This document shows positions 23,821 through 59,700 of a stretch of 64,000 nucleotides of DNA, in pieces; position 1 is the stretch's first letter, and every line of letters begins with the position of its first letter. Origin of the DNA: Branchiostoma floridae. Taxonomy: Eukaryota; Chordata; Leptocardii; Amphioxiformes; Branchiostomatidae. The notes under the pieces are model-generated. The model saw nothing but the letters and a program-made list of their open reading frames with translations, made no database searches and was not told the origin of the DNA. A program made the position numbers and the translations under genes. The stretch is from NCBI RefSeq assembly GCF_000003815.2, contig NC_049997.1:16540139-16604138 (forward strand), given 5' to 3'.

Positions 23821-23969
23821 GTTGTGTTGTGCATGTTATGACTTGATCATCGTCTCTAGCTCTGAAAGTAGTTCAACCAGTGCCATGGGTGTGTCGTCAG
23901 TACGTCAAAATTGTTTCACGTTGTGCCCTCAGGTTTTAGGTAGCTTGCGGCACGCATTGGCTGGGTTTA

Positions 23970-24200
23970 AGGTGGTATCTCACTGCACTTGGGTCACCGA
24001 TACAGCACTGCGGGGTTCGAAAAAATACTCAACGAATTTCAGAGATAAAGAACAAAATTCTGTGTATTTTGCTGTCTTCTCAGTCGTACTTTTACGTATA
24101 ACGCAATATCTAAATTACAAAAAAATCGTCGAGAAAGACACAACAGTGACGAAGTGAACGAACACCGCTAGGGTTCCCCAAGTGCAGTGAGATACCACCT
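23970..24200. mobile_element. Harbinger-like MITE, 231 bp, only in unit A
   Basis: Perfect 24-bp terminal inverted repeats start AGGTGGTATCTC. A TTA direct repeat flanks it (23967-23969, 24201-24203), the usual PIF/Harbinger target. The same place in unit B (about 31988) reads 'ggtttacacggg' with no element, giving a ready empty site. The insertion therefore followed the duplication, or was lost precisely from B. Confidence 0.75.
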
Positions 24201-24281
24201 TTACATGTGCGTCCCCGGAGCTCGAAGTTTATATACACAACTACACTCGAGCTCATAACATTGTGATCATTGTTTTGTATC

Positions 24282-40841: not shown

Positions 40842-41510
40842 GTATTGGTACCTATTTGTTGGAGTTCATTTTTTTTATATCACATGTTATGTAGATGTAC
40901 CAATTGCTGTCTTGTTAGTCTAATACATAGTGACTGACAATTCTACAAGGCATGATTACAGTTACACTTTTGGTCACTTTTCATTACTAAGTTGAATCAT
41001 TTCAGTCTCTTTGTCATTTGTTGCTATCCACGATGATAATATATGTTGCTATACAGTTAACAATTCAACAGGGCCATATATTCAAATCATCAGTAACATT
41101 TTCATCATATGCCATTTTTCATCTTATTAACATTGATTTAATTTCTATTCTCTTACACTGTCCTACCGCAAGTACATGTTACACTAAAACATTTCTTACA
41201 AAACAAACTTACAAAAACATCATATTGCACTTCATATATGTCGTCTAAGACTATTACAATATCTTTCCAACATCTTATAGAATACTGTGGCATATCTTAC
41301 ATTTTATACAGTTGCGTAACAGTAATATATAGTATGACATTGACTTGTGAAAGCACAGTGTCTTGGCATCTTTAAGTACAACAATGGTGATCACTTCTTA
41401 GAATACTGTTATCTTTTATCTTTGTCTGTTCGGATGTACAGGGGTGTACTGTGAACTACACAGCAGTTACATTACTTTATGAAAAAACATATGGTCTATA
41501 CGGACTCGTT

Positions 41511-41780
41511 CCTCAGCTAACTGACATCTATTGCACTGCAGTCATCCTTTAGTAAGACATCTGGACCCTTATGCTTAGAACTTTTGCCAAACTGGTTTCG
41601 TTGTGTACAACTTATTCAGTGACTAGAGGCTTAAGGGCAATAATACACAAAGTGTGCATACCGCCCTGGTATCTTTACAGTGATTACCGGACTGGTACCT
41701 ACTAATGCTGTAGCAAATATGTGACTTCAGATGTCTTACTAAAGGATGACTGTGGTACAATAGATGTTGGCTAGCTGAGG
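41511..41780. mobile_element. Foldback element, 270 bp
   Basis: Arms of about 55 bp start CCTCAGCTAAC and share CAGTCATCCTTTAGTAAGAC in inverted orientation. Non-coding, not linked to a known family. Confidence 0.6.
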
Positions 41781-42454
41781 AATGAATCAACTCTACTATA
41801 TGAACATACAGTCTATATATAGACAATGCTGTCCTGTGTTACACAGTATCTGGCTACCAGGGGCTAACGGTCTTTGGCTCCCTTCTAGAGAGGGGGCGGT
41901 CAGTCGGGCGATTTGGTCAGACTACAACCATGTTATGTGACCGTGGAGCCAACACTACACTTTTTCACTGATTTAAGATAGAAATTGCTGCGACAATACT
42001 CCTATCCTATTATCTACACTTGGGGATGGGCACTGGGTTAGTAAGTATGAGGAAAAAGAGTCCAATGCTCTTTGACCTTTTTTATGAATGGGGAATAGAA
42101 AATAAGAACAACAAAGTAGTATTGCACTATGATTATCTAACATGTTTCTTATTTGGATGAATCTGAATGAAGCTCTGCGTTGACATGCACCCTAATATGC
42201 CTTTGACTAATTTGCCTGAATTTGGAATAAAGCTCTGTTTTGACATGTGCCATAGTTTGCCTTTAATTTTGCTCCTATTCTAATTTACTTGAGGGAGCCT
42301 CAACCTTAAAGTTTATACCATAACTTTAACTTAAAGTTCATACATCAGGACTTTTTAAAAACAGGGACAGGGGACACCATAAACTGTCTTTATTATACAG
42401 TTTACTAGTCACTTGACTCGATTCACTGATCATATATAGGCAGCTAGGTAACCG

Positions 42455-43175: not shown

Positions 43176-46100
43176 CTAGACGACGTTTTCGTCCACGTCG
43201 GAGTTGTGGTAGATGGGGTTCTTCCTGACCACACTAGACTGGCGGAAGCTACTGGTGCTGAGGTCAGTCATCATGGAGGGCGGTCCGCTCTGCTGGGACA
43301 TCATCTCAGCAGCCTGAACCTCGATGCCGATGTTGTCTGCCTTCACGGTCTTGTGTGCTTTGTTGTCATTGGCCTTGCTCTTCTTACTCTTCCTGAGGCT
43401 GAAGCCTCTGCTTGGCTTCTGGAAGAAACAAACAAAATTATGATATCTGTCAACATCTTTTTGAATCTTTTTCTCGTCAAAATTCTAAAACAAAATCTGC
43501 CCATTAAGCTTAAAAAAAGACATCAGGGGAGCAAAACGAACAGTGCATATTTTCTGCTCCAAGAGCTATGTATAAATTCAAAATTACAGCCACAGTATGT
43601 CCAGAACACAAGACATCAAAACTTAAATTCTGCTGCAGTTTCTCAGAAAGCTGCTATTAGGCACATTATCAAACTTGACCTTCGTTTTCCAGACCCCTAC
43701 CAAATATCATTGGAATCCATTCAAGGCATCTTGGATTATGCTGTTAACAAACACATGCACAGAGGAAAACACTGAAGACATACTTTATTCGTGAAGGTAC
43801 AAGCATTCTTGGTGAGGGTTATTAGAAAGGATTGTTGTCAAAAACGCGTCAGTAATGGCGAGAGTATGACAGTATGTGCCCCAAATGCAGCCATGATAGG
43901 ACTTACAATGCACACACTAGGACGGACCCCTTCTCTTTCAATACCTGTAAATGTATTTAAGTTTACAGGGATTTAATTTCGTGGTATCGGGAAAAGGACT
44001 GTTTGTAGTGGTTTTAAGCTCAGGATAGTACCATGCACTGCACAGTAGTCTCTTACTGCCATGGGAAAATGTTTGCAGTGGTTTTAAGTTGAACTTACCA
44101 GTATATTTGTAACGCAAAAACCGCGAACACAAAACCATCACGAAAATTTCTGCATCTACAGTAAGTGTGAGGTGGGACTCTCCTCGAACATTCCACTGTT
44201 AGAAAAAAGGATATGTCTAGCATTATGAAATTATTACATGTTCTGAAAAGGATATGTCATGCATACCTTCATGTTCTTGTCGGCAGCACATTTCTTCCAC
44301 TTGCCGACAGCGGCCTTAGCTAGCTGTGTCTCCTTCTCCTTCCTGGTGCGATGGCGTTTGTAGGCAATCTCAATAAAGATCAGGAACACTCCTGCCACTA
44401 TGCCTCCAGCAACAAGCATGAAAACACCTGGGAGGAAAATGAAGACAAGATAAAATGCAGCCACAACCCTAGACAGGGACATCCAATAGAATCTCAGAGA
44501 TACTTCTGCAGCTACATATTGGTCTCATCATGTTTTCAACCAAGCACACTGGGTCAACACACTACTTTTTTTTTCTATAGATGTTTTGGGTTGTTATGCC
44601 CAGGCATTTAACACAAGAAGATTATGCCCTAAGCTTCCTAGTAGTAGTACACAGAGCAATCAAAAAGGAAAAATGCAATCCCTTTTCACATGTTCGAGCT
44701 GAGCTGATCCTTGGATCGAATTCAGGCCTATGAAATTCGATCTAGAGGGACAAGCAGTGAAGCTGCATTATTACTTGCGCCACAGAGACTGACTAAATGT
44801 GTTCCTTAGGACAAATAACAAAACTTTTGTATTTTAGCATTTCAACAAAAAATCATGATTACTGTACAGGTGATTCATTGCTTTCCACTGACTTCACTTC
44901 TAAGATGCAGAATTATTCAGATATCAGTACCATGGACAGCATCATTTCACATATTTAGAAAAAAGTTTCATTTCAATACAGGAATCTAGTCAGACAAACA
45001 GAGGTCAAACACAACATAAACTGTACACCTTATGTCATACTTGTACCATGATGATGATGATGTAACACGATAATGCTAGAGATGGGTGATTTGGACATGG
45101 TGACAACTTTATCATCACACAGGGTTGTACTGTTATCAAACAAGATTCCATACAGTCATTGGAACAAACTTCAAGTATGTGGTTGTTGACATTTGAAATG
45201 GAAATTTTGCAATTTTTCATATCTAGGACACAGGACTTTCTCTTCTTCTGACGTATTTTTTGCGGGGTATCCAAAGAATGCCCTTATTTTGCAAGATCTT
45301 GTGTCTTAACAGCCTTACTGCCCCTACGGCCACCGTCTATGGGACTGAGTGTGAACAATGATTGCACAATGAATGTGACTAGGCCTTTACCTGCCATGTT
45401 TTCAAACGTCAGTGTTGCTGGTGAGTTCTTGCTGGTCTGGCAGTCCTCGTACCGGACCCACTCCCGGTCCAGCTCCTCCATGAAGCCGCTCTCATGGAAG
45501 CTGAGGATCTGTAGGGAGATCTCCTGTCCCCACGGACTGTCCTTCCGCATCCCAATCCCAAAACCTGAACAATACGTCATAAAATCACATCTTAATAAAC
45601 ATTTCTGTACATAGGGAGATCTCCTGTCCCCACGGGCTGTCCTTCCGCATCCCAATCCCAAAACCTGAACAATACATCATAAAATCACATCTTAATAAAC
45701 ATTTCTGTACATAGGGAGATCTCCTGTCCCCACGGACTGTCCTTCTGCATCCCGATCCCAAAACCTGAACAATACGTCATAAAATCACATCTTAATAAAC
45801 ATTTCTGTACATAGGGAGATCTCCTGTCCCCACGGACTGTCCTTCTGCATCCCGATCCCAAAACCTGAACAATACGTCATAAAATCACATCTTAATAAAC
45901 ATTTCTGTACATAGGGAGATCTCCTGTCCCCACGGACTGTCCTTCTGCATCCCGATCCCAAAACCTGAACAATACGTCATAAAATCACATCTTAATAAAC
46001 ATTTCTGTACATAGGGAGATCTCCTGTCCCCACGGACTGTCCTTCCGCATCCCTATCCCAAAACCTGAACAGTACATCATAAAATCACATCTTAATAAAC

Positions 46101-49100
46101 ATTTCTGTACATAGGGAGATCTCCTGGCCCCACGGGCTGTCCTTCCGCATCCCTATCCCAAAACCTGAACAGTAGACCATAAAATCACATCTTAATAAAC
46201 ATTTCTGTACATCATAAGGGAGATCTCCTGTCCCCACGGGCTGTCCTTCCGCATCCCTATCCCAAAACCTGAACAGTACATCATAAAATCACATCTTAAT
46301 AAACATGTCTGTACATAGGGAGATCTCCTGTCCTTCCGCATCCCGATCCCAAAACCTGAACAATACATCATAAAATAACATCTTAATAAACATTTCTGTA
46401 CATCATAAGGGAGATCTCCTGTCCCCACGGGCTGTCCTTCCGCATCCCTATCCCAAAACCTGAACAGTACGTCATAAAATCACATCTTAATAAACATGTC
46501 TGTACATAGGGAGATCTCCTGTCCTTCCGCATCCCTATCCCAAAACCTGAACAATACGTCATAAAATCACATCTTAATAAACATTTCTGTACATAGGGAG
46601 ATCTCCTGTCCCCACGGGCTGTCCTTCCGCATCCCAATCCCAAAACCTGAACCATACATCATAAAATCACATCTTAATAAACATTTCTGTACATAGGGAG
46701 ATCTCCTGTCCCCACGGGCTGTCCTTCCGCATCCCTATCCCAAAACCTGAACAGTACATCATAAAATCACATCTTAATAAACATTTCTGTACATAGGGAG
46801 ATCTCCTGTCCTTCCGCATCCCTACCCCAAAACCTGAACAGTAGACCATAAAATCACATCTTAATAAACATTTCTGTACATAGGGAGATCTCCTGTCCCC
46901 ACGGGCTGTCCTTCCGCATCCCTATCCCAAAACCTGAACAATAGACCATAAAATCACATCTTAACCCTCAAACCACCGTATGGGGTCAAAACTGACCCCA
47001 GACGTATATCGATGTGTGCCATTATGACATTTCTGGTCGAAAACANNNNNNNNNNNNNNNNNNNNNNNNNNNNNNNNNNNNNNNNNNNNNNNNNNNNNNN
47101 NNNNNNNNNNNNNNNNNNNNNNNNNNNNNNNNNNNNNNNNNNNNNNNNNNNNNNNNNNNNNNNNNNNNNNNNNNNNNNNNNNNNNNNNNNNNNNNNTTTG
47201 CGACTAAGACTTTCTATTCTGTCGTAGGATCACGAAATTTTCAGAGAATGATGTAATTGTAAGCCAAAATTACTGCAACAACTTTTGTGCCATTATCATT
47301 TTATATGACGATATGATGACGTCATCTAGTTAATCTCGGCCGCCATCTTGGATTTTGGCTGATGACGTCTTGAAATTAGCATAAATTATGAATATTGAGT
47401 CATGAAATTTACGTTGAATTTCATAAGATGTGATTAACAACTGTTATTTGCTAGGAAAACCTTAAGACTTAAATGTTTAATACAAAATTGGAAAATTTCG
47501 TAATAAATATGTCTGTCAGAATTCCGTTGCCATGGCAACATGAGAAATGATAAACATACTTTGTTCACTGAAAATGTTTGCTTTCAACATTTTCTAAAAA
47601 GTTACCAAGTTTGGTGGCCCTAGCGTAAGCCATTCAGGCACTACACGACATAGAAGTTTGTACAGGCATCAAAAACCTCCTTCCCGGTCTGAATAGCATT
47701 GGTGCAAAATGTGGTCCTCATGATCTTTTGCATAAATTATGATAATGAGCTAGAAGTATTCTCACCGAATCATGTCAGACTGTCCCACATAGATTAATGA
47801 AACTATACATATATACAAATCACAAAAAGAGTCACACAAAAAACTGTATTTGTACAAAACGTTTTGGGGTCAGTTTTGACCCCATACGGTAATCTACGTC
47901 ACAAAAAAGCTACGGTGGTTTGAGGGTTAATAAACATTTCTGTACATAGGGAGATCTCCTGTCCCCACGGGCTGTCCTTCCGCATCCCTATCCCAAAACC
48001 TGAACAGTACGTCATAAAATCACATCTTAATAAACATTTCTGTACATAGGGAGATCTCCTGTCCCCACGGGCTGTCCTTCTGCATCCCTACCCCAAAACC
48101 TGAACAGTAGACCATAAAATCACATCTTAATAAACATTTCTGTACATAGGGAGATCTCCTGTCCCCACGGGCTGTCCTTCCGCATCCCTATCCCAAAACC
48201 TGAACAGTAGACCATAAGTAATCTAAGAATGTAAATTCATCTGAGTAGGTAAATGTCATTAAGAAAAAAACAAACAATTCTGATGATGATAATGAACTAC
48301 ATGTAATGTTTATTTGTGTGTAACCAGCACTAAAGATAGTCGGAACCTAAATTTTCGACTGACTGCGAATGGACCTGTCCAGTAGCTTCTGGGATGTGAC
48401 CTTGGAGACATGTGACTGCAGAGACGGGGGGCGACACAGGTTATCTGGCACCTAGGATCTGTTGTCGTAGTCACATGTCTCCAACGTCTCATCCTGGAAG
48501 CTGCTGTGGACAGGTTTTTTCTGTGAACAAGGCTGAGGGAGTCAGCCAACGATTTGTCCCAACTATTTTTTTTTGTTAGTTAGGTTCAGTTGTTTCATAT
48601 TAACAAATGAAGTAATGAAATCACATCTTTATATTTATAGTCATTTAAGATATGTTATTTCTGTACATACTTTAGGGAGATCCCTTGTCCCCATGGACTG
48701 TCCTTTTTCATCACTATCCTAAAAACGAATAATTATATCATTTCATAGTTCACGATTAGACTACAGATATACTGACGCAAGGTACTGGATGCTACCTGAA
48801 ACATCTGACCATTTCCAAAATCATATCCTGGCAGTTATCTGTTCTTGATAAATAAACTGTTATCTTGAGTAGGGTAAAGGTCCAATAGCCAGAGTTCATT
48901 ACTTTAATATTTTTGTGCCGATAAATGAACCAAGAAATAGAAACTGNNNNNNNNNNNNNNNNNNNNNNNNNNNNNNNNNNNNNNNNNNNNNNNNNNNNNN
49001 NNNNNNNNNNNNNNNNNNNNNNNNNNNNNNNNNNNNNNNNNNNNNNNNNNNNNNNNNNNNNNNNNNNNNNNNNNNNNNNNNNNNNNNNNNNNNNNNNNNN

Positions 49101-50735: not shown

Positions 50736-53700
50736 AGTGACTACTACTACTACAGACTTACCCTTGCATCGTTGATACCCGAGATGCTGGCCTCTGGTCT
50801 GTCCAGCACCAGGAAGGCAGCCAGGTTGGCAGTGTAGGAGGCCACAATGATCATGGCAAACCCTGCCCACACCATGCCTAACACACGTGCACTGAAGCTG
50901 CGTGGAGTTCCTGTTGTAGAACAAACAAGAAATCTTTTTAAAAAAGCTGTGCCTTGCCGCGTATTTTATGTTATTTTGGTAAGTTAGACTAGATTCTACG
51001 CTTAAAAATCCCGAGTTCCACATGTCGCCCCCCTCCCCCCTCATTATCATAATTTATGTCAGATGAATTATTGGCACATTAAACAGGTTTTGTAAAACTT
51101 TTTGACCCACAATGAATATGCATTATTTTTTATTACAAACTAAGTTCCTTCTGATGCAATTTGTGATATATATTTATATAAACATGGTGAGTTAAAGCGT
51201 ACTACTAGATTTATTACGCTGGACCACATACAAAAACATGCGTCTAGAAGAACTAGCATCCTTCTCCTGCTTCAGGANNNNNNNNNNNNNNNNNNNNNNN
51301 NNNNNNNNNNNNNNNNNNNNNNNNNNNNNNNNNNNNNNNNNNNNNNNNNNNNNNNNNNNNNNNNNNNNNNNNNNNNNNNNNNNNNNNNNNNNNNNNNNNN
51401 NNNNNNNNNNNNNNNNNNNNNNNNNNNNNNNNNNNNNNNNNNNNNNNNNNNNNNNNNNNNNNNNNNNNNNNNNNNNNNNNNNNNNNNNNNNNNNNNNNNN
51501 NNNNNNNNNNNNNNNNNNNNNNNNNNNNNNNNNNNNNNNNNNNNNNNNNNNNNNNNNNNNNNNNNNNNNNNNNNNNNNNNNNNNNNNNNNNNNNNNNNNN
51601 NNNNNNNNNNNNNNNNNNNNNNNNNNNNNNNNNNNNNNNNNNNNNNNNNNNNNNNNNNNNNNNNNNNNNNNNNNNNNNNNNNNNNNNNNNNNNNNNNNNN
51701 NNNNNNNNNNNNNNNNNNNNNNNNNNNNNNNNNNNNNNNNNNNNNNNNNNNNNNNNNNCAAAACATAAGCAATGTAAGTACCCACTGGTTGTGTAACAAG
51801 AATTCTCCTTCATCCTATATAGTACCAACCTGATGAAACTATTTTCGGAAAAAACAACTGTTACAACAACTGATTAGAACTCATGGTAGAGAGCAAGAAA
51901 CCACCAGCAAGACATCCGAAAATAATTTCATCACGTTGGTAGATCATAGGACATAGGAGTTTTCTTTTACACAGTCAACCAGTTTTTCTCACCTGCTGAC
52001 AGACATAGAAACGTCAACAGGTGAGAAAAACTGGTTGTGTAAAAGAAAAATCCTATGTCCCACCAGGAAGACAGATTTCAGTCTTCAAAATTTTCTTTTC
52101 TCTACACTATGCCAGCTTCATGGCTACCCTTTCCTCCAATGACCAGGATGTCAAGGGACTAGATAGATAGGTAGGTAGGTAGCCATATTGATTCAATTAT
52201 ATGGATTAAATGTACTGAGCACGCACCAAGTTTTGTCTATTTAAAAAAAGAAGTTTTTACCAATCATGTAAATCATATAAACCTGCTGCAAAATTCCTGA
52301 TACAAAAAAGAGTACAAAGTTTAAAAAAATCTGCAAATGGATACTATTGTCGTAGAAGCTAATTTCAAAGTCAAGGAAGGAAGATGTGAAAGAACAAGAA
52401 TGAATTTCCTTTTGAAAACACATATTAATTTGATAGATTGTACACTCACATTCTGTTGGGGCTTTGCAATGGCCTTATTGGTGGCATACCTTCTCCACAT
52501 CTATTAGTTTCTATGTACATGTAGTTAGAATAATGCTATTGATTGTTACACTATTCGTGTCAAATTCCATTTGTATTGTCTTTATGTCTATCAGCAGGGC
52601 TTAAGCCCTTTGTAATTTCTACAGGCTTAGGCGAGTCTAAGGTAAACGCAGTGAATGTTAAAAAGCCAAACCAATAAATAAATCAATGACTTTGTCAAAT
52701 ACCTTCTCCAATACCACTGTTGAGCAGCACACCCCAGGAGAACCACATGGCGCTGGACAGGTTCAGGGCGTCCTCTTCTTCTTCATCGTTACTGAGTTTA
52801 AAACGTCCAAAGGGACTGAAGCGGTCCAGTAGGTACAGCATGAGTGCCACCACATGGACGGACAGGCCAACCAGAAGCCACAGTGTGCTCTGGAACGGTT
52901 GGAGGAACGAATCCAGACTGCTCTTCTGGGTTTCCTGAGGGATACAAAACGTTTGAAATATTGAAAACGTCCAAAGGGACTGAAACGGTCCAGAAGATAC
53001 AGCATGAGTGCAACCACATGGACGGACAGGCCAACCAGAAGCCACAGGGTGCTCTGGAACGGTTGGAGGAACGAATCCAGACTGCTCTTCTGGGTTTCCT
53101 GAGGCATGAAAAAGGTCCGAAAATAGTATTAAAATGCTTGTCACACAAGTGATTGAACATAGAACCTTATAAATCACACTTTCCTTCTCTGATTCCTGCT
53201 TACAGGTACATGTACTCAAGTTAAACTCTGCCATACGTGACATCACAGTGTCAGCAAAGCAGAGGGTTTAGAACCTGCCTACCAGCTTGGACCACTTCCT
53301 GCTGATGAAAAACATTCTTTTAAGAAGCATATATCTGGAGACAAGTCTCTAGTATCTTCATGGCTACCTTGTCCCACTAACGATCTGGATGTTTAGGTAT
53401 AATGTATTTAGTAATGTATACCAGGTAAAAAGAACAAAAATGTCACCACCTTTTTCACCAGAATGGTAAGGCCCTGGTACTTGAAGGGCTTGGAGAACTC
53501 TATGTACTGGGCACGCTCATTGTTGATGGTGAGGGGCGCCACAATCAGATCTGCCTCTCCTCTTAGCAGCTCCCCAATCATGCCGTTCCACTCTTTCTTG
53601 TTGCTGTTATTTGCCTGGGTAAAGACGATACATATATCACAAATTGATATCAAAAACATCCAATTGCAGATTGAACAAAGGATAGCAGGGGTTTGGTACA

Positions 53701-56700
53701 ACTACTCTGGGAAGATATATCGAGAGTTCGAACATCTAGGGTGTGGAATAATAGCAGTACTGGTGTTGAAACATGGGGCTTTTGAAACATAGGGCTGTTG
53801 TAACATATAGGGCTGTCGGAACATAGAGCTGTGGGATCAGAAGTGTGTTGAAACATAGGGGTATTGGAACATCATAGGGGTGTCGGAACAAAGGGTGTAA
53901 GAACCTACTTGTAGGTGTGTCGGAACATAGGGTGTCAGAACATAAGCCATGGCGGTGTTGTAACATAGGGGTGTTGTAATATAGGGGTGTCAGAACATAG
54001 GGATGTTGTAACATAGGGGTGTCAGAACATAGGGGTGTTGAAACATAGGTGTGTCAGAACATAGGGGTGTTGAAACATAGGGGTGTGGGAACATTATATA
54101 GAGGTGCCAGAATATAGGAATGTCAAAACATAGGGGTGTGGGAACATATATAGGGGTGTTGGAACACAGGGGTGGTGGATTATAGTGGAGTTAGAAATGT
54201 ACATGTTGGGATAGTGGAACATAGGGGGATTGTAACAAACAAACATAGTCAGAAAATATTGGTAGTGTTTTTAAGGGGTGTCGAAACATAAATAGAGGTG
54301 TTGGAACATGGGATATTGTAACAAAGGGGTGTTGGAACATAGGGGTGTTGAAACACAGGGGTAGGAACCTAGGGGTACAGGAGCAAAAGGTTGTCCATAC
54401 ATTGGCAATGGTAACCATAACAGATACTATATAACTCATAGAAGAACGTGCTTTACCCTCTCTTGTGTTCCAAACTTGCCATCCTTGACCAGGTGGACGT
54501 CGTAGGTGAAGTTGAGCTTCTGGGCAAGTTGCTTCAGCAAGTTGATACAGAACCCCTCACAACACTGCATCTCCCCAGCATTACTACCTGCACAGAGAAC
54601 CTCATTGTTGCATGGTCTATGTCACTGTAAAAAGCCTAAATGGGAGAGCAGGGTTCTCACAAGCACAGTTGAGCAAAGGGAGCCCCTACGCTGTGATTTG
54701 TATCCCCTATGCCTTGACTGTGGCCTCTGGGCTGTGTTTCAATGAGCGTAGGGGTATTTCTGTTGTTTTGTAACAATGTTGGATTTATTTCATGAAATTT
54801 GGCCCTCAAAATGTAAAAAGATTGTGTCTCTGAGGTTTAAAAAATTTCAGAAGATGCTGCTAGACCCTCTCCCCCAACAAAATTTACACCTACATGTATG
54901 GGGCTTGACATACCCTTTACGCCGTGAAAAAATTGGGGTGAGAACTCTGGAAAGGATTTATCTAAATTCACCCTTAATTGTTACTTGTAAATGGATGGTT
55001 GGTATTACATAAGGACCAGAATAAATTGTTATGTTTTTTTTTTCCATAAAGATTTTTGGCAATGCTTCAGGGGTGGAGCCTAGCCTGCATTTACACAATC
55101 TTTTGCTGTCTGGGCTGATTGGGCCTCCTACCTGAGAGCTTGTGGCCATACAACTCTAATTTCAGAGAGCCATTTCTTTCCAATAGGAACTTTTTTGTCA
55201 CCATGTAAACAAGTCATTATAGCCACCAATTATTCATTATCATTTATTGTAGTTCTGACAATATTTCATCCAAAGACAGATCCATTTCTCCCAATTTAGA
55301 GATGTTGGCCATCAAGCTTCTAGGGGCCTGACCGGTGCGAGGGTGCAACTGCAGCTAGAAGCATGATTTATCAGGCTGGGGTGAAGCCTTAGTTTATCTG
55401 AGAATGGAAGAAGTCCATACCATAATTGGTGCCCTATTCTCCTTAAACTTAGAGGCTTTCAATAGCCATCAAGCTTGTTTTGCGGTAAGTAAATAAAAAA
55501 AGCTTCCAGGAACCTGACGAGTCAAAGGGCTGCTATAAGCATGATTTATCAGGCTAGGGTGAAGCCTAATAGTTTATCTGAGTATGGAAGAAGTCCATAC
55601 CATAAGTGTCCAATTCTCCAAACTTAGAGGTTTTCAATAGCCATCAAGCTTGTTTTGCGATGAACCCCAGTAAGTAAATAAGAAAATAGCTTCCAGGAAC
55701 CTGACAAGTCAAAGGGCTGCTATAAGCATGATTTATCAGGCTAGGGTGAAGCCATTTAGCTTATCTGAGAATGGAAGAAGTCCATACCATAATTGGTGTC
55801 ATTGGGGACCAGGCAGGGAACCTGCTTCTCCCGGCAGGACCCATCACGCTGGGCGTCCAACACGTAGATGAACGGGTGCATTTCTATAGTCACTGTCTAC
55901 GTAAAGAGCACCAGACATAGAGTCATGAGTAGACCTACGCAGGCAAACACTACTCATGGCAGGGACTAAAGATTGACCCCTTCTTTTAACCATCGGCTTC
56001 GTGAAGTAGTCGTTTGGCAACAAACTTGATTTGGTTAAAAGTTGAAATAGATTAAATTCTTGTGTTTCAGCCATCATTCAGCCACAAAAATGACTTGGAT
56101 TGGTTATGGGGTTCAGCAGCAAGAGAAGTTTAAACATTTCGTGTTTTTCAAATTTTCAACCCTGACATGTGATGGGGGACGCCATAGGCTATCTTTCACA
56201 TTTGATCCATTTTTTAATTTAATTTGCCACTTTTCACCAATGAAATTTAATGAGAAGGCTATCTGGCACATTTCTTTCATTATTGCTTTTCTGTTTACCA
56301 GAAGTTACAAATGGGCCATTTCTACCATTTCTGTGTAGGCTGAGCCACTGTTTTGGAACTGCAGGACATTTTTGTGTAAATTGTTCAGAATGGATAAGGA
56401 ATGTCAGATTGTCATAAATTGGGGCATGTAGGTAAGTTAGACAAAAATGTACTTGCACAGCCAAAACTTTGGTCTAATGCTTTGAAGTGTTTTGTCTGTT
56501 TAATATCTGTTTTATGATTTTTATTAGGGTCAACCTTGAGTCTCTACCATGAGCAGTGTTTGTAAAAATCTGTGAAGATTACCCTTACCATAGACGGTAT
56601 TGTTAGGAGCATAACATGGCACGGCACGGTCCACACACAAGCCATCCGACTGCACTGGTTTTATATAGACGAAGGGGTGCGACTCTATAACTACAATCTA

Positions 56701-59700
56701 CAGGGAAGAGACACACACTTGAAATGAAAGCAGAACAACCAGCAATCAAAGTCACATCAATGCAGTGAATGTAGAGTAGCTTGCACAGAGCACGTCAGTA
56801 GAACATTATGTGAATACTTGAGACTTGATTTTTTTGTTATTAATATGTGATTTTGTGTACCCCTCAATGTTTTCAAAAGTAGGTTACAGTGTCTTTATGT
56901 TGCTGGGTCCCTGTTTGATTTTTATTGCAAGTTCAAAAATCTGGGGATCCAGCTGTGCCCCAAAATAGTATGGTGTTGCAGGGTTTCTTAGGGCTTACAT
57001 CTTAAAGTGATAATGAATTCAAAACAGCCCTTAAACTTTCTATTGGGGTCCCTTTTTTCAATTGTTTAACCGTTGCAGTATCAGTCATATCAAGGAGTTG
57101 TCTTGAAGCTACAAACTAGATCACGGTTACTGTATATGTTGGATATTAGGTCCATGTTTCATCAGACTTTTGTCCATTTCATGCATTTTATCTTTTTCAA
57201 GACAACATTTTGGAAAACGCCCTCATAAGATACATTCTACTGAAGTGCTCTAGTACAGTTGCATAAAGTAGCATACACACTGAAATGTATAGGTAGGCAC
57301 AAATGAAGGGATTTGAAGCACAACAAAGCCTTTGACAGCTCAGTCATTCAAGTATACTCTTGAATAATGGCTTTGAAGATGACCATTTTGTTATGACTCC
57401 TGATCATTATGAATATAGTACTTGTCAGATATGGCTATAAATGCACAGTAATTGATATTTCGTAACAAAATGGAAAAAAAGGCTATTTATGTGTGTGTGT
57501 GTGTGCATTTGTATATTTGCTTGCAGGGCTCAAAATATCACCTGTATATGCAGGTTAGTGCAGGTAAAATTGGAGCTGTGCAGGTATTTCCGATGTCTAC
57601 CTTCACCTAACCTGCACTCTGGTCATAATATACATAAATGTCCTATGATGTAGTTATATGTGGATTGTTGCAGCTGTCAGCTGCATTGACTGTTACCACC
57701 TTAAGTAAAAAAAGGAAAATAACAATGCTTCCTCAACAATTTTAGTATGATTTATACATCCTAAATTCAGAGAGGTGCAGGTAATTTTCAATGTTACCTG
57801 CACCAATGCAGGAATGAAAAAAAGGGATTTCGAGCCTTGGTTTGTATGTGTTGAAGTACATATATTCAGCTGAATGTACAACAGTTACTGTGTTTTACCC
57901 TGATATGTCTTACTTTCCTGTACCAAAAGAAACAAGTTTACTTTGAGTCTGGTGGAGATGTTGAAGCCCTCAGGTCTCTTGGTCTCCCCTCCTGGCCAGA
58001 TGATCTGATCTCCGTTAATCTTGATCTAAAGGCAGATGAAAGACATACTGTACATGACATTGTGGAACCAACTCACCTTCCAGTCAAACAAAGTCGGTAC
58101 CAAACATGACCAACAACTATAAACTCCATCAAACTGCCTGAACCTAAAATTAAAACCGATGCAGAAAGGAAATGCTTCCTCTACTTTATGTCTCATCAGT
58201 GGAATACAACACAGGACAGTTTATGACTGATCCAGTTTTGCTCATTGAAGAGCTTACTCTTTTACTGGTTGCAACAGAGAAGACATACATTGTGTATTTA
58301 CAGGTTCGTTGTACTGAAAACATTCCCCTAGCTCTTTTAGACAAGTACAATGAACAATGGACCACGGTTCAACGTCCGGTCCCTAGAATTGCAACCCTTT
58401 CCGGTAGCATACATGACAGGCAAGCAGCACAGCCAGAATTGATTGACAGCATCAGTGGCAGTGTCGCCAATGACTGGACTAAACAATTGATTGCACTAAT
58501 ACTTAATATTTAGTAAACAAATGAAAATTTTGAGGTTGGTTTCACTACATGATATTGTTATCATTCATTTACTAATTCATCTTTATGTACTCAACATGAA
58601 CATTTCTAACCTCATAAAGTGACAAAATGGTGATAAAAATTTTACTTTTGCTGAGACACTAGCTAAAGGTCAGTGGGAAAAGTAGGAAGCTCACTGCTTG
58701 GGACTGGGAGCTTGAGAAACGTTAAGATTTTTACTTTCTTCAACTGCTTGGAGATTGGAACAATTCTATTCTGTGATACCTATTAGTAATGCCAGACAGC
58801 AGTAAGTCAAGCAACTGGATATGACTTTGGAAATGGTCACTTTTGTCAGTGACACTGAGCAGATCTTTTGAAGAGCAGGATCTATTACCTACCTGTGTTT
58901 CTCCAATGTTGGACCAGTTGCCAACAGGGCGCAGGCCTTTAGCTCTCTGCACATTCACAATGGTGTACTCTGCTGAGTCTCTGTCTCCAACGTTGTCAAA
59001 TCTCACCACCCCTGTCTGTCCTGACAACAGGCGGGTGTTAATCAGATACCTGAAGAAATATCACAACAAAAAGAAGCATATGATGACGATATTGTCATAT
59101 CTGAAAGTGTGCATTTTTCGCCAATATTAATTGTATAGCTTTCTTTTTCATTAACCAGGGCTTATGACAAAATGAAAGTGATATCGATCCAGTTTAGCTC
59201 AATGAAGAGCAACTCTTCCACTGATTATGACAGAGAAGACAGCTGATATGTACAGTCTTCACAGGTTCACTGAACTGGGAAAATTCCCCTCTTAGCATGT
59301 CTTTTTGACAAGCACAATGGACAGTAGACTGTGGACCAAAGTCCTGTCTAAGGGGTATGACCCTATCAAGTAGCAACAAAGCTTGAATTTGTAGCATATG
59401 GCTTCCTGGTCCAGAGGCAGAGCTGCTAACCACTGGACTTTTCATGCTATTTTGGGGGATCATTGCTGTACAATCAATAGGAATGACTGCTTGTGGTTGT
59501 TCCACACAACCTGAATGTATGATCTCTCTCTTTGTCTGTCAGTCTAAGATTTGGTAATGTGCACAGTGAACACAAAACACCATACCACAGAATAGCAGAA
59601 ATTTCAGCACCCCGGACAGATACACAATAGTCAGGTATTTAGTATTATAAGTAGACATATTGGATGAAAAAAAAAGACTTTTAGACTCTTGATGTTTACA

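Follow-up and report, generated by a model that had tools for sequence, protein, structure and literature searches.

The flip and flop exons of the AMPA receptor genes (GRIA1-4) are 115 nt long, encode 38 residues at the end of S2 and carry 8-10 differences (PMC8257547; here and below, the papers cited are represented by excerpts). In the excerpted text of that paper, no mechanism besides decay is described that would ensure exclusive use of the two. Among human mutually exclusive clusters, 60% contain exons whose length is not divisible by three (PMC5740500). Alternative exons have also been reported in the channel gene NALCN, whose pore exons 15 and 31 have duplicate versions, with mutually exclusive variants confirmed in snail (PMC3557258).

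GluN1 is part of every NMDA receptor. In vertebrates, the known splicing of GluN1 alters the ATD and the C-tail and leaves the core of the ligand-binding domain unchanged, and a survey of human RNA-seq data found only three other GluN1 events, all at low level (PMC8257547). No S1 switch in GluN1 is named in the excerpts of that paper. The chordates studied in PMC5225553 have 3-8 Grin1 splice variants and Aplysia has a single Grin1 variant, with the exons concerned left unspecified in the part available. That paper and PMC6307864, both on lancelet ionotropic glutamate receptors, make no mention in their excerpted text of an exon pair like the one considered here, and the excerpts of PMC6292497 mention neither NMDA nor glutamate. 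Across the open-licence literature searched, as represented by such excerpts, we found no description of an S1 exon switch in a lancelet GluN1.

Two versions of one segment in the amphioxus GluN1 gene

The minus strand of the window, by which we mean the whole stretch of 64,000 nt that was analysed, carries most of a GluN1 (NMDA1) gene; the N-terminal end of the gene has its match outside the window, in L009. A first-pass annotation of this DNA had proposed that two adjacent exons of 109 nt, each entered in phase 0 and left in phase 1, encode alternative versions of the same GluN1 segment. Their coordinates, lengths and phases hold, as do the AG/GT borders of both exons. We refer to them as A and B, and to their neighbors as g and h:

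57942..58025, minus strand: exon g, the upstream neighbor, read to its end as 21 residues, phase 0 at the end
56589..56697, minus strand: exon A, 109 nt, phase 0 in and 1 out, 36 residues followed by (G)
55788..55896, minus strand: exon B, 109 nt, phase 0 in and 1 out, 36 residues followed by (G)
54457..54587, minus strand: exon h, the downstream neighbor, read from its start as 18 residues, with the partner cysteines CC and F484 (rat numbering)

The intron between A and B is 692 nt long, and positions 54453-58030 contain no Ns. When the isoform segments with A and with B were compared with solved structures, they matched GluN1 chains with 236.8 and 235.3 bits, respectively, scores that are mostly due to the exons common to both isoforms. 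For each isoform, the best 60 of 365 structure matches are all GluN1 chains, one of them a GFP fusion. Searches with the exons alone provide a fairer test. Exon A by itself reaches an E value of 0.0016 (21.6 bits), and the best 60 of its 66 matches are all NMDA-receptor chains. Exon B reaches 0.015 (18.6 bits), with the best 60 of 63 matches again all NMDA-receptor chains, the last of these 60 being GluN3B. The proposed assignment of both exons to one GluN1 segment is thus upheld. Confusion with the AMPA flip/flop exons themselves can be set aside, as the gene is GluN1 and the exons lie at the start of S1.

Downstream, exons h and i read DGKFGTQER and a stretch of 11 residues, and the GluN1 glycine-site residues F484, P516, T518 and R523 are present. 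The exon that carries W731 and D732 (the WDS motif of GluN1) was not found in the window; it may lie in an assembly gap, either of the N runs at 49115-48947 or 47196-47046. Our search for a homologue of the GluN1 N1 cassette gave nothing convincing. In Pfam, the bare 36-residue exons have no match, and in the joined segments the Lig_chan-Glu_bd match starts downstream of the A/B part, so the exons themselves are not covered. Genome-wide, PF00060 (Lig_chan) is found at 87 places at an E value of 0.001 or better, representing many glutamate-receptor genes or pieces of them.

The region is single-copy in a genome search, apart from tandem copies of the exon B donor and two weak matches to the interior of the A-B intron. 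No second haplotype or paralogue of the region appeared in that search, which scores best candidates only. A single copy argues against the exon pair being an assembly artefact. Neither the window nor L001-L009 contains a third version of the exon that scores 24 bits or more.

Divergence and constraint of the two copies

Exon A finds exon B by tblastn with 46.2 bits (E 9e-11); 200 shuffled versions of B, run against the window, reach 23.9 bits at most. The two are identical at 56 of 108 bases (52%) and at 18 of 36 residues. Identity is unevenly spread over the codon positions, with 23/36, 22/36 and 11/36 at positions 1, 2 and 3 (positions 1 and 2 vs 3, one-sided Fisher p 0.0016), and the third positions look saturated. 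Of the 18 residues common to A and B, 11 are written with different codons.

We examined constraint on each copy with a two-branch codon model on 36 codons, with kappa set to 2 and omega on a coarse grid. Allowing one copy to be neutral since the duplication is worse by 2ΔlnL 10.2 than the best point on the grid, and holding one copy at omega 0.5 is worse by 4.65; such a test cannot exclude a recent loss of B. Comparison with rat GluN1 places 13 positions as kept in rat, A and B, while five match A only and five match B only; at another five A and B agree with each other against rat, and at the remaining eight all three differ. The symmetry of these matches is the pattern expected of two working descendants of one exon. 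Judged from the sequence, both exons bear the mark of coding selection since their duplication.

Reading frame and predicted exclusive use

The frame is open, with no stops, in both g+A+h+i and g+B+h+i. When both exons are included (g+A+B+h+i), the first stop falls at codon 82 of the segment, inside B; when both are skipped (g+h+i), it falls at codon 46, inside h. The claim that using both or neither breaks the frame is therefore borne out. By coordinate, the next junction follows these stops after 56 and 77 nt, respectively, distances at which nonsense-mediated decay would be expected to clear mRNAs with both exons or with neither. Reading on past the donor of B gives a stop after ten extra residues. 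Adjacent homologous exons, alike in length and identical in phase, whose joint inclusion or skipping is non-productive, are characteristic of a mutually exclusive cluster, and A and B have each of these properties.

Constraint on both copies, the behavior of the frame and the single copy of the region all support the reading of A and B as a mutually exclusive pair in S1. We consider it highly probable that the pair is real, coding, apparently old and arranged for exclusive use; the exclusive use itself we infer from this arrangement. A tandem exon duplication in the GluN1 gene would have produced two alternative exons for S1 residues 400-444 (rat numbering), with each mature mRNA carrying exactly one of them.

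A predicted hairpin across the A-B intron

While comparing the sequences on either side of A and B for remnants of the duplication, we spotted an inverted repeat within the intron that separates them; the tests of this stem came after. Its arms, and the splice-site segments predicted to pair with each other, are as follows:

56526..56562, minus strand: stem arm 1, 26 nt past the end of exon A
55944..55980, minus strand: stem arm 2, 47 nt ahead of exon B
56580..56595, minus strand: 3' edge and 5' splice site of exon A, with 14 predicted pairs to the 3' splice site of B
55895..55910, minus strand: pyrimidine tract, AG and first exon bases of B, the predicted partner of the A 5' splice site

The arms align over 37 columns with 35 pairs (15 GC, 16 AU and 4 GU) and two mismatches. 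On folding, 13 of the 14 pairs between the A donor and the B acceptor have probabilities of 0.96-0.99 and one has 0.54, with the GU in an internal loop. In three further sequence contexts, the mean pairing probability of the nine A donor bases with the B acceptor region is 0.77. The duplex between the A 5' and B 3' splice sites, at -19.3 kcal/mol, ranks second of the 256 donor-acceptor combinations in the gene and first among the 14 adjacent pairs.

Shuffles, the other introns of the gene, random stretches of the window and a genome-wide pattern search served as controls. The first and last 100 nt of the A-B intron form a duplex of -68.9 kcal/mol, compared to a shuffle mean of -31.5 (sd 4.5), and none of 3000 shuffles is as low. 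The same end-to-end test on 13 other introns of the gene, drawn from those with both ends placed, gives z values from -1.95 to +1.33. Folded whole, the A-B intron has a z of -3.61, with 0 of 20 shuffles as stable. Of 1500 random 692-nt stretches of the window, one is as low, and it overlaps the A-B stem itself. The general repeat search did not list this stem. The window also holds four further inverted repeats that score at least 40 bits and have their arms less than 2 kb apart, at 41503-41788, 51790-51973, 23969-24201 and 46975-47890.

Searching the 513-Mb assembly for the arm pattern (28 places, up to three mismatches) returned two occurrences, both of them here. The arms are thus not a common dispersed element, and a TIR transposon as their source is not supported. 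The interior of the intron (56352-56450) has two other genomic matches, 72% alike over about 100 bp, and is perhaps an old dispersed repeat. The arms are 86% alike over 36 nt, compared to 52% for the exons. Such a difference suggests that the stem arose after the duplication or has been kept by selection, two histories that one genome cannot separate.

In Dscam-type docker/selector systems, intronic pairing is tied to mutually exclusive splicing. RNA structures of this type are mentioned in the excerpts of PMC5740500. At this locus the two arms pair with each other at -55.6/-56.9 kcal/mol, and the best other partner in the f-g, g-A or B-h introns reaches -26.2, so that no second comparable partner of the docker/selector kind was found in these neighboring introns. 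Against the hairpin stands a coarse duplex test of whole introns, which found no excess in any of three intron pairs (24/30, 27/30 and 20/25 shuffles at least as low). A weaker inverted pair does run across introns, joining 56363-56392 to 57615-57644 (30 nt, 73%).

Exclusion can also be steric. In mutually exclusive exons of the alpha-tropomyosin type, the branch point lies within about 50 nt of the upstream donor. The 692 nt of the A-B intron speak against steric hindrance when the intron is taken in line; the two sites would come close only with the predicted stem folded. Incompatibility of U2 and U12 sites is rejected as a mechanism of exclusion, as the donors (GTAAGG and GTATGG) and AG acceptors are of the U2 type and neither exon has U12-type sites, judged by the U12 consensus.

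These predictions suggest, tentatively, a splice-site zipper in which an intron-long hairpin enforces the choice between A and B by pairing the 5' site of A to the 3' site of B. The hairpin would stop A from being spliced to B by making the forbidden A-B junction physically unavailable. By itself, a closed hairpin would favor skipping of both exons, as the A donor region and the B acceptor are hidden together; the structure must therefore open, and be dynamic, for either exon to be used. We regard the zipper as possible, with doubt outweighing belief. As a double strand of about 35 pairs close to the exons, the stem may in addition be subject to RNA editing.

The rival that survives best has both exons in use, with exclusivity arising from the frameshift, decay and ordinary splicing factors, and takes the stem to be accidental or an inverted duplication without a role. 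It is in keeping with the 60% of human exclusive clusters whose exons are not multiples of three (PMC5740500) and with flip/flop, for which the excerpts describe no mechanism beyond decay (PMC8257547); that the window holds four other strong inverted repeats also fits. Yet the arm pattern was found nowhere else in the genome, which argues against a dispersed element; none of the other 13 introns tested has end-to-end pairing of comparable strength, and this stem leads to precisely the two splice sites that must be kept from joining. We think this rival a serious contender, if somewhat short of probable.

Splice sites and exon-edge repeats

The first-pass annotation had credited both exons with good splice sites. 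By an approximate weight matrix, the description suits A (acceptor 5.6, donor 5.3) but not B. The B donor, at 2.3, is of middle rank (eighth best of the 16 donors scored), and the B acceptor, at 0.38, is weak, with only one of the 17 acceptors scored below it. Weak splice sites are a common feature of regulated exons. The difference in site strength suggests that A is the likely default and that B would be the regulated form. A single Rbfox motif (TGCATG) is present in the g-A intron, at 57185.

Three repeats in the gene involve exon edges:

55354..55793, minus strand: tandem repeat of 187 bp in 2.4 copies that begins within the final bases of exon B, with the donor copied at 55601 and 55421
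52800-53104, minus strand: tandem duplication of the 5' part of the M1 exon, 164 bp, 96% alike
45512-46964 and 47927-48217, minus strand: array at the S2 exon, with a 100-bp unit that contains the acceptor and the first ~50 nt of the exon (19 residues)

At the M1 exon, the first acceptor (53098) leads to a frameshift and a stop, and the second (52934) keeps the frame. The S2 array, which is of the mirage type and interrupted by an N run, holds 18 near-identical acceptors including the true one, with the repeats upstream of the true exon at 45564.

The weakness of B raises a second rival, in which one exon (B or A) is a once-functional duplicate lately out of use, so that a single exon is spliced today. 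Along with its acceptor, among the lowest scored, B has a tandem array at its donor that gives two decoy donors, and the hairpin could have arisen by chance and now silence the exon. However, the frame, AG/GT borders, cysteines, glycosylation sequon and GluN1-specific residues are all intact, long-term neutrality is rejected for either copy, and weak sites are no mark of disuse when they are common in regulated exons. We judge recent disuse improbable.

Mirage minisatellites, tandem repeats across an exon-intron border, have been described for the globin and Adh3 genes of amphioxus (PMC3087553). The three repeats here (55793-55354, 53104-52800 and 48217-45512) cross such borders, and the A/B pair does not. 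That A and B are themselves a non-functional product of tandem mirage duplications is highly improbable: despite the three exon-edge repeats in this gene and the known globin and Adh3 cases, the repeats are partial and 87-96% alike in the main TRF rows, whereas A and B are complete, with 52% nucleotide identity, and their flanks have no same-orientation match better than E 0.37. A mirage is a plausible origin of the A/B duplication.

Predicted consequences for the receptor

If A and B are used exclusively, the choice would fall on a segment equivalent to rat GluN1 400-444, which covers strand 1, residue 405 and a large part of loop 1, including C420 and C436. The position of rat Q405 is Ser in A and Met in B. 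Both exons keep the two loop-1 cysteines and the PNxTxY end, as annotated, along with the glycosylation sequon at N440.

In rat GluN1, the glycine domain is closed by a contact between its lobes made by Q405, W731 and D732, and surface expression is reduced in the Q405A mutant (PMC12199545). The glycine EC50 is 1.75 μM in Q405A compared to 2.40 μM, and the Hill slope is 1.04 compared to 1.41 (PMC12199545; excerpts that do not include significance). Given this small change in EC50, the effect of the A/B switch on the receptor may be small. The cysteine pairs C420-C454 and C436-C455 matter for surface delivery (PMC13064811). We infer that the switch, which involves strand 1, loop 1 and a Ser or Met in place of Q405, would tune the co-agonist response and surface delivery in a graded way, with no new ligand and without making a different receptor.

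If the pair is used in this way, a non-vertebrate animal would have diversified the co-agonist site by splicing, a parallel to flip/flop in AMPA receptors, which affects the opposite end of the domain. If the zipper also holds, a chordate outside the vertebrates would have an NMDA receptor with two versions of the glycine site. The hairpin would then be a testable mechanism for a question left open for flip/flop, namely what besides decay blocks joint inclusion.

Comparison with known systems

Vertebrate GRIN1 also undergoes alternative splicing, at the N1 cassette, C1 and C2/C2'. These events comprise a cassette in the ATD and a cassette with an alternative acceptor in the C-tail, whereas the amphioxus pair lies in S1. 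NALCN likewise has duplicated alternative exons that alter the functional core of a channel gene. It is a different channel, however, and in the excerpts of PMC3557258 amphioxus is reported with one pore version only.

The hairpin differs from the docker/selector arrangement of Dscam in that its predicted stem joins both ends of one intron and reaches the splice sites. The repeats at the B donor, M1 exon and S2 exon resemble the mirages of Adh3 and globin as tandem repeats at exon edges, whereas A and B are a complete, diverged exon duplication.

The pair most resembles AMPA flip/flop. Both are tandem exons in the ligand-binding domain of an ionotropic glutamate receptor, known to be mutually exclusive in one case and very probably arranged so in the other. 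At 115 nt for flip/flop and 109 nt for A and B, each length is a multiple of three plus one, encoding 38 and 36 residues, respectively. Flip and flop form the last part of S2, at the dimer interface, and differ at 8-10 residues; the amphioxus exons belong instead to GluN1, lie at the start of S1 and differ at 18 of 36 residues.
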